Shown one piece after another: positions 55,765 through 56,013 of a DNA stretch of 64,000 bases. The translations under genes were made by a program, and so were the position numbers. A model generated the notes under the pieces. It worked only from the letters and a program-made list of their open reading frames with translations. It was not told the origin of the DNA and did no database searches. The stretch is from Nodosilinea nodulosa PCC 7104 (GTDB taxonomy: Bacteria > Cyanobacteriota > Cyanobacteriia > Phormidesmidales > Phormidesmidaceae). The stretch covers positions 268,128-332,127 of the forward strand of contig NZ_JH976537.1 in assembly GCF_000309385.1 (NCBI RefSeq). The letters are read 5' to 3'. Each line of letters opens with the position of its first letter. Position 1 is the first letter of the stretch.

Positions 55765-55837
55765 GGGCGATTAGCTCAGTTGGTAGAGCGCCTGCCTTAC
55801 AAGCAGGATGTCACTGGTTCGAGTCCAGTATCGCCCA
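55765..55837 (+). tRNA. tRNA-Val (anticodon UAC)
   Basis: 73 nt. Acceptor stem GGGCGAT/ATCGCCC, D arm GCTC-AGTTGGTA-GAGC, anticodon stem CCTGC/GCAGG with loop CTTACAA (anticodon TAC), T arm ACTGG-TTCGAGT-CCAGT, discriminator A. All stems pair; CCA is not encoded. Bases 55786-55802 are the exact match of the CAST homing spacer, and the tRNA remains intact because the transposon inserted after its 3' end. Confidence 0.97.
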
Positions 55838-55841
55838 TATG

Positions 55842-55975
55842 TGTACTTGTGTCGAATAACAGATTGCTTGTCATCGTTAACAGATTCGTGTCGTTTTAAC
55901 GGTTTACCTGTCGTTTTTAACAGATTTCTGTCGTCAAGGCGTTTTTACTGATCGTTAACGCGCTATATGTCGCCT
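55842..55975. promoter_or_regulatory. CAST left end with TnsB-type binding repeats
   Basis: Begins TGTAC, like other V-K left ends. TGTC motifs start at 55850, 55869, 55889, 55909, 55929 and 55968, i.e. 19, 20, 20, 20 and 39 bp apart. Most are preceded or followed by AACAGATT- or TTTAAC-like sequence, so the repeating unit is about 20 bp. This is what an array of TnsB sites should look like. The binding itself is inferred from the family. Confidence 0.82.
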
Positions 55976-55983
55976 TTATGCCG

Positions 55984-56013
55984 TTGTAAGGCAGGCGCTC
56001 CTTTCAATCCACC
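55984..56013 (-). CRISPR. Delocalised homing crRNA unit targeting tRNA-Val
   Basis: On the minus strand a short repeat remnant ending GGTGGATTGAAAG (56013-56001) is followed by a 17-nt spacer, GAGCGCCTGCCTTACAA (56000-55984). The spacer is identical to 55786-55802 of the tRNA-Val gene, and the eighteenth base differs. In the target the bases just 5' are GGTA, a GTN-type PAM as used by V-K systems. A short, separate spacer at the transposon end with a tRNA target is the known design of V-K homing guides. Confidence 0.9.

Follow-up and report, generated by a model that had tools for sequence, protein, structure and literature searches.

Left end of a type V-K CAST and its putative homing guide beside tRNA-Val(UAC) in Nodosilinea nodulosa PCC 7104

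The tRNA-Val(UAC) locus and its Cas12k region

The window analyzed here is the whole 64,000-nucleotide stretch of DNA, corresponding to C1:268128-332127 of an assembly of 6.89 Mb in total. An intact tRNA-Val(UAC) gene lies at 55765..55837 on the plus strand (ARAGORN; Rfam RF00005 tRNA, 77.2 bits) and contains a 17-nt protospacer at 55786..55802 (+). This protospacer is matched exactly by a 17-nt homing (anchor) guide at 55984..56000 on the minus strand, the reverse complement of one being identical to the other. The three bases before the target are GTA, a PAM of the GTN type at 55783..55785 (+), and the identity between guide and target ends at 17 nt, the 18th base being different. In the whole assembly, the exact 17-mer occurs in two places, the target and the guide; no site carries one mismatch, and three sites carry two mismatches.

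On the minus strand, the guide is the last element in the order cas12k, tracrRNA-like region, array, truncated repeat, and 17-nt guide. The truncated homing repeat (R*), GGTGGATTGAAAG, occupies 56001..56013 (-) and is complementary at 8/8 positions to the tracrRNA anti-repeat. The homing unit RNA is predicted as a GGUGGAUUGAAAG handle followed by the 17-nt guide. The CRISPR array (56101..56730, -) consists of nine repeats of 37 nt, five of them identical, two with one or two changes, and two, nearest the left end, with five and eight changes. The predicted tracrRNA region (56731..57112, -), whose start was inferred from the position given in PMC9938897, includes the hairpin CACCTCCGATCAAGGAGG and the anti-repeat AATCCACC at 56933-56940. 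The cas12k gene (57145..59091, -) encodes 648 aa and was identified by phmmer against Cas12k in the PDB (E 1.6e-203) and by PADLOC. Its product is homologous over query residues 2-641 of 648 (E 6.1e-203) to the Cas12k of ShCAST from Scytonema hofmanni, for which structures have been solved; ShCAST is a different element, whose cargo and guide are not those of the window. For V-K homing, Saito 2021 and Hsieh & Peters 2021 are the works that other papers cite.

The earlier note on this DNA had read the arrangement as the homing crRNA of a V-K CAST, with a GTN PAM before the target, a match stopping at exactly 17 nt, a tRNA left intact, and an orientation fitting the V-K rule. All of these points were borne out: Cas12k, array, anti-repeat motif, truncated repeat, and PAM agree, and the tRNA points at the left end. 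The anatomy itself has already been described from 118 CAST systems (PMC9938897), where V-K elements have a 17-nt anchor spacer, an R* of about 12 nt, a GTN PAM, and a left end 46-82 nt from the PAM, with the tRNA pointing at that end. Delocalized V-K guides are likewise described in PMC11656645 and, as a 13-nt repeat plus a 17-nt spacer, in PMC12719977. By sequence, the window resembles the V-K systems of PMC9938897 in its tRNA directed toward the left end, its GTN PAM, 17-nt spacer, and truncated repeat apart from the array, its array and tracrRNA downstream of cas12k on one strand, and its end, 64 bp from the PAM and within 46-82 nt. Unlike those systems, the window has no small DNA-binding regulator beside the start of cas12k, the longest non-neighbor ORF between cas12k and the helicase described below being 32 aa, and neither the transposase genes nor a right end was found in the assembly. 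The regulator is a usual V-K feature in the same paper and was not taken here as essential.

Two further searches concerned the array. A host array was considered as the source of the CAST repeat and rejected: the 37-nt repeat, with up to 3 mismatches, was found in 3 of 26 genomes of the genus, and its 12 places are CAST arrays. No targets of the array spacers were found among PLSDB plasmids or INPHARED phages at E values up to 1.

Left end, cargo, and the assembly gap

The transposon left end (55850..55983, +) starts with TGTCGAATAACAG and contains several TGTC repeats that, by eye, look like TnsB sites. In 11/11 loci compared, the window included, a terminus TGTCG(A/G)(A/G)TAAC was observed at 60-65 nt after the PAM; in the window this terminus is TGTCGAATAAC at 55850, nt 65 after the PAM, leaving 64 bp between PAM and end. 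L170, a more distant locus with the same anti-repeat type that was left out of the 11-locus comparison, has the terminus TGTCACTTGCC at nt 60 (counted by eye), which differs beyond TGTC and lies at the same distance. In the relative G228, the opposite terminus, 340 bp beyond tnsB, reads GTGTTACTCGACA, the inverse of TGTCGAGTAAC. Because related ends start with this motif at 60-65 nt and its inverse is present at a related right end, the end was placed at 55850. The earlier note had set it at TGTAC (55842, 56 bp after the PAM), a position that is 8 bp off and is ruled out by the related left ends and the related right end. In place of ATATG, which the note had named as the sequence to look for at the far end, the predicted candidate 5-bp target-site duplication is then ACTTG, at 55845..55849 (+), beside the revised end. 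A complete element would then be a candidate to carry, at a predicted right end, a GTTACTCGACA-like terminus followed by ACTTG.

The right end of the window element was not found before a 100-N gap, nor beyond it in this assembly, and that of its sister element was not found up to the end of the sister's contig. At the right ends of the relatives G041 and G228, the expected target-duplication flank was not found, the G228 terminus being seen without a matching 5-bp flank, and a single flank match in G303 was rejected as a target duplication, as the site has little resemblance to an end. The G041 right end is directly followed by TGTACGTTCGC, which looks like the beginning of a left end from another clade, so that stacked insertions are likely; such stacking of elements at tRNAs may perhaps account for the duplications missing at the relatives' right ends.

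To the right of cas12k, the cargo includes a SNF2-type helicase with an HmaA/DrmD-like defense profile (59279..62260, +; Pfam; PADLOC HmaA, E 1.3e-175) and a NOV_C protein (62270..63031, +; Pfam) that matches the C-terminal part of the HmaA profile in PADLOC. The HmaA-type profile runs from the first ORF into the second, in the same frame by coordinates, and 59279-63031 could be either a single gene interrupted by a stop codon or a pair of separate genes. An ORF with winged-HTH domains in Pfam (63324..64000, +), which we take to be an IS630-type transposase, is cut by the 100-N gap (C1:332137-332236), which starts 10 bp right of the window and inside an ORF. After the gap, the genes in L008 and L009 look host-like by eye, and the initial 151 bp recur without a single difference at another place in the genome. 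The earlier note had pointed to the right for tnsB, tnsC, and tniQ; with the sister's proteins as queries, no match was found in the four 20-kb stretches L008-L011 (80 kb). In view of the host-like genes, this lack of V-K transposase matches, and the 151-bp copy, the sequence after the gap was rejected as the element's right side.

Searched against the genome of the window, the sister TnsB found its best match, at 38% identity, at C1:3514409, on the side of a second Cas12k. TnsB at C1:3514409, TniQ at C1:3517137, a Cas12k with an internal TAG at C1:3538793-3540565, and a tRNA-Ala(GGC) beyond look like the parts of a probable, separate second V-K CAST at C1:3514409-3541791 (L018 4400-7700, L019 8000-11800). 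The genome also holds a Tn7-like pair in L020 (C2:383702-386558), one member of which, a 941-aa frame, is TnsB-like but far removed from the TnsB of V-K elements (25% identity), while the other, a 271-aa frame, matches TniQ.

Relatives, target choice, and entry at the tRNA

The closest comparison is the sister element L054 of Tildeniella torsiva (the same place as G020:C30), whose Cas12k is 90% identical and which has tniQ, tnsC, and tnsB; it homes to tRNA-Val(CAC), not tRNA-Val(UAC). In the relatives that share the window's homing repeat, the guide is directed at tRNA-Val(CAC) (L054, L055, L098, and L099) or at tRNA-Pro(CGG) (L056 and L057); of the scanned loci with this repeat, only the window has a guide for tRNA-Val(UAC), unlike the closest relatives found. 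Conversely, the identical 17-nt guide is found at tRNA-Val(UAC) in L105, L107, L126, and L130, elements of other clades in the same genus with 34-47% Cas12k identity. More broadly, 26 of 49 loci scanned contained an inverted match to a tRNA that was 14 nt or longer, in most cases next to a GTN PAM; the scanned set includes tRNA sites without Cas12k, and two of the 26, L059 and L102, have no V-K-like repeat before the match. Target changes between close relatives are known and are called unexplained in PMC11406308.

An empty site for the window insertion, which the earlier note had named as a check, was not found; relatives share the tRNA and diverge about 2-3 bp after it. At the same tRNA, the left end of the other-clade element L126 is preceded by TACAGGAAACC, and these bases also open the sequence of L116, which is uninterrupted; read from these sequences, the pair is an empty-site comparison that displays the insertion geometry for another clade's element. 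The right flank was sought from a relative's tRNA site, with no match beyond the tRNA except one of 52 bp on C2.

Left-end-like sequences of several CAST clades lie at tRNA-Val(UAC) in L101 (G017), L106 (G020), L105, L126, L130, L107, L100, L108, and L114, some without a guide match (by eye), and in L106 one clade's terminus is seemingly cut by another's (by eye). This tRNA seems to be a hotspot with stacked remnants. A different feature was seen in L102 (G015), whose genome has no Cas12k match: 130 bp beyond its tRNA-Val(UAC) gene, 20 nt match that gene in inverted orientation. They sit in the inverted repeat GAGTTCGAGC...GCTCGAACTC and, unlike a V-K homing unit, are not preceded by a V-K repeat. 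Far from the window's tRNA, positions 17744-18031 are 75% identical to the sequence just after tRNA-Val(UAC) in L101 and partly to L106, a likeness that could stem from a past rearrangement or a shared repeat.

Several readings of the agreement between guide and site were weighed. An origin of the 17-nt match in chance or ordinary tRNA-related repetition has next to no probability. Different tRNA genes do have sequence in common, and two of the three two-mismatch sites are in tRNA-like stretches, but the 17 nt are the longest inverted match that the tRNA has in the 263 bp after it, whereas in 2000 dinucleotide-preserving shuffles of these 263 bp the longest was 11 nt, reached once; moreover, PAM, repeat, and spacing are all present, and the arrangement recurs at other tRNAs, so that this origin is refuted. 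The guide might instead have been acquired once the element was in place, by copying or recombination from the tRNA site or a different element, recording location and not entry. The sister with 90% Cas12k identity has another guide (6/17 positions differ, by eye) at another tRNA, a guide swap between elements is conceivable because the four elements with distant Cas12k carry an identical guide, and a few bases beyond the guide resemble L107, by eye only. Even so, many tRNAs show the same agreement of guide and site, in most cases beside a GTN PAM, the 11 loci measured have a nearly constant distance, as expected of an acting guide, and PMC9938897 cites experimental insertion via protospacer recognition; a later copying of the guide is improbable. 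We give considerably more weight, short of favoring it, to the element being a crippled remnant that homed once, lost its transposase genes, and is no longer self-mobile. No close TnsB is present in the assembly, two array repeats are degenerate, two ORFs divide the helicase profile of the cargo between them, and decayed relatives exist, among them the genome's own second Cas12k with its TAG; at the same tRNA, L101 has a related left end and no guide match of at least 14 nt in the 12 kb searched. Against such decay, the cas12k reading frame is open over its full length and the homing unit has no flaw. Furthermore, the break is a 100-N gap that falls within an ORF, and the 151 bp that follow are duplicated elsewhere, so that missing assembly is as likely as gene loss.

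Guide, target, PAM, a left-end terminus common to relatives, array, tracrRNA anti-repeat motif, and cas12k are all observed directly. Taken together, they indicate that the locus is very probably the left end of a type V-K CAST, in which a truncated repeat and a 17-nt guide match the adjacent intact tRNA-Val(UAC), and which likely entered by Cas12k-guided homing, with its end 64 bp past the GTA PAM. The points against this explanation are the missing linked tnsB, tnsC, tniQ, and right end, the missing target duplication and empty site for this insertion, the missing regulator, a sister that homes elsewhere, and the differing terminus of L170. In the mechanism that we propose, the homing guide would be transcribed toward the left end, its repeat would pair with the tracrRNA, and Cas12k with this guide would bind the tRNA gene; TniQ, TnsC, and TnsB, none of which was found in the assembly, would then set the left end about 60-65 nt downstream, keeping the tRNA whole.

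The homing handle and its predicted pairing with the tracrRNA

In the window, the 8 bases that precede GAAAG in the homing repeat complement the anti-repeat exactly, whereas the array repeats match 5/8 in that frame. The predicted duplexes are a continuous one of 8 bp for the homing repeat (-12.9 kcal/mol) versus an interrupted one for the array repeat (-9.8). To place this contrast, a class sample of 388 genomes was used, 97 of them with a Cas12k match, from which 59 Cas12k stretches were taken, hand-chosen and mostly stronger matches. The repeat comparison covered 99 loci, 97 with a Cas12k match; the tracrRNA motif was found in 72, and the 25 without it were left out. Homing loci were the 50 motif loci with a match of at least 14 nt, matches of 12-13 nt being dropped. 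The motif was shaped on the first clades, so that an incorrect frame may account for misses in basal clades, where some homing calls (L059, L219) may likewise be false.

The homing repeat was complementary to the anti-repeat at 8/8 positions in 33 of the 50 loci, with nine of the 17 imperfect ones at 7 of 8, while the commonest array repeat was perfect in 0/53 loci with an array. Where both could be compared (38 loci), pairing was better for the homing repeat in 32, the same for both in 2, and better for the array repeat in 4. Since the loci include duplicates (e.g., L056/L161), a non-redundant set of 28 was drawn, in which the homing repeat was better in 22, equal in 2 (L174, L192), and worse in 4 (L059, L177, L204, L207); the sign test gave a p of 5e-4, a value that is too small because the loci are related by descent. 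Ten different anti-repeat variants each have an exactly matching homing repeat, and the two therefore covary: 10/27 non-redundant pairs were perfect, compared with a permutation mean of 0.74 and a maximum of 5 in 20,000.

These results are compatible with two interpretations of the handle. According to one, which we rate at just under an even chance, the perfect homing handle only compensates for truncation, in that a 12-13-nt repeat must pair well, whereas a 37-nt repeat pairs over further positions and can afford a break; the choice of pathway would not be affected. In its favor, the window's two 37-nt repeats are predicted to bind about equally to the whole tracrRNA region (-22.2 kcal/mol for the array repeat and -22.5 for the 37-nt stretch that has the homing repeat at its end). 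Covariation with the anti-repeat is seen for array repeats too, at a mean of 5.8/8 versus 4.94 when shuffled (0/20,000 shuffles reach 5.8), and predicted duplex energies near the anti-repeat show the contrast less strongly, favoring the array repeat in 7/28 non-redundant sets and R* in 21/28 (sign test p 0.013, Wilcoxon p 0.025, both made too small by kinship). The array break, on the other hand, looks maintained, not tolerated, with the commonest array repeat perfect in none of the 53 loci and array position 3 paired in only 7/28 non-redundant sets. According to the other interpretation, V-K transposons would rank their guides by tracrRNA fit, with a homing repeat kept fully complementary to the anti-repeat and array repeats kept interrupted, so that homing to a safe tRNA site outcompetes array-guided jumps, and guides would recombine while the matched handle stays. 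We regard this as possible but rather doubtful. At the level of mechanism, the homing repeat is predicted to pair uninterrupted and the array repeats with a break, and the homing guide would thus be favored, or at least usable despite its short repeat.

Type I-F3 CASTs have a multi-subunit effector with TniQ and are not known to use a tracrRNA. Their atypical homing crRNAs (PMC11406308) are likewise distinguished by divergent repeats, which influence how these guides are used; compared with I-F3, the V-K contrast described here lies in predicted tracrRNA pairing. This contrast between homing and array handles is a lead with no earlier report in the literature searched, though other V-K papers may already contain it. 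Overall, judged from its sequence, the locus adds another well-preserved example to the V-K homing sites, and the homing strategy is already known. What it raises is why target tRNAs change between close relatives, the question called unexplained in PMC11406308. If guides were exchanged with the handle kept, this would explain such changes between closely related elements, and the regular contrast in tracrRNA pairing could decide between competing guides and might help in selecting handles for CAST tools.
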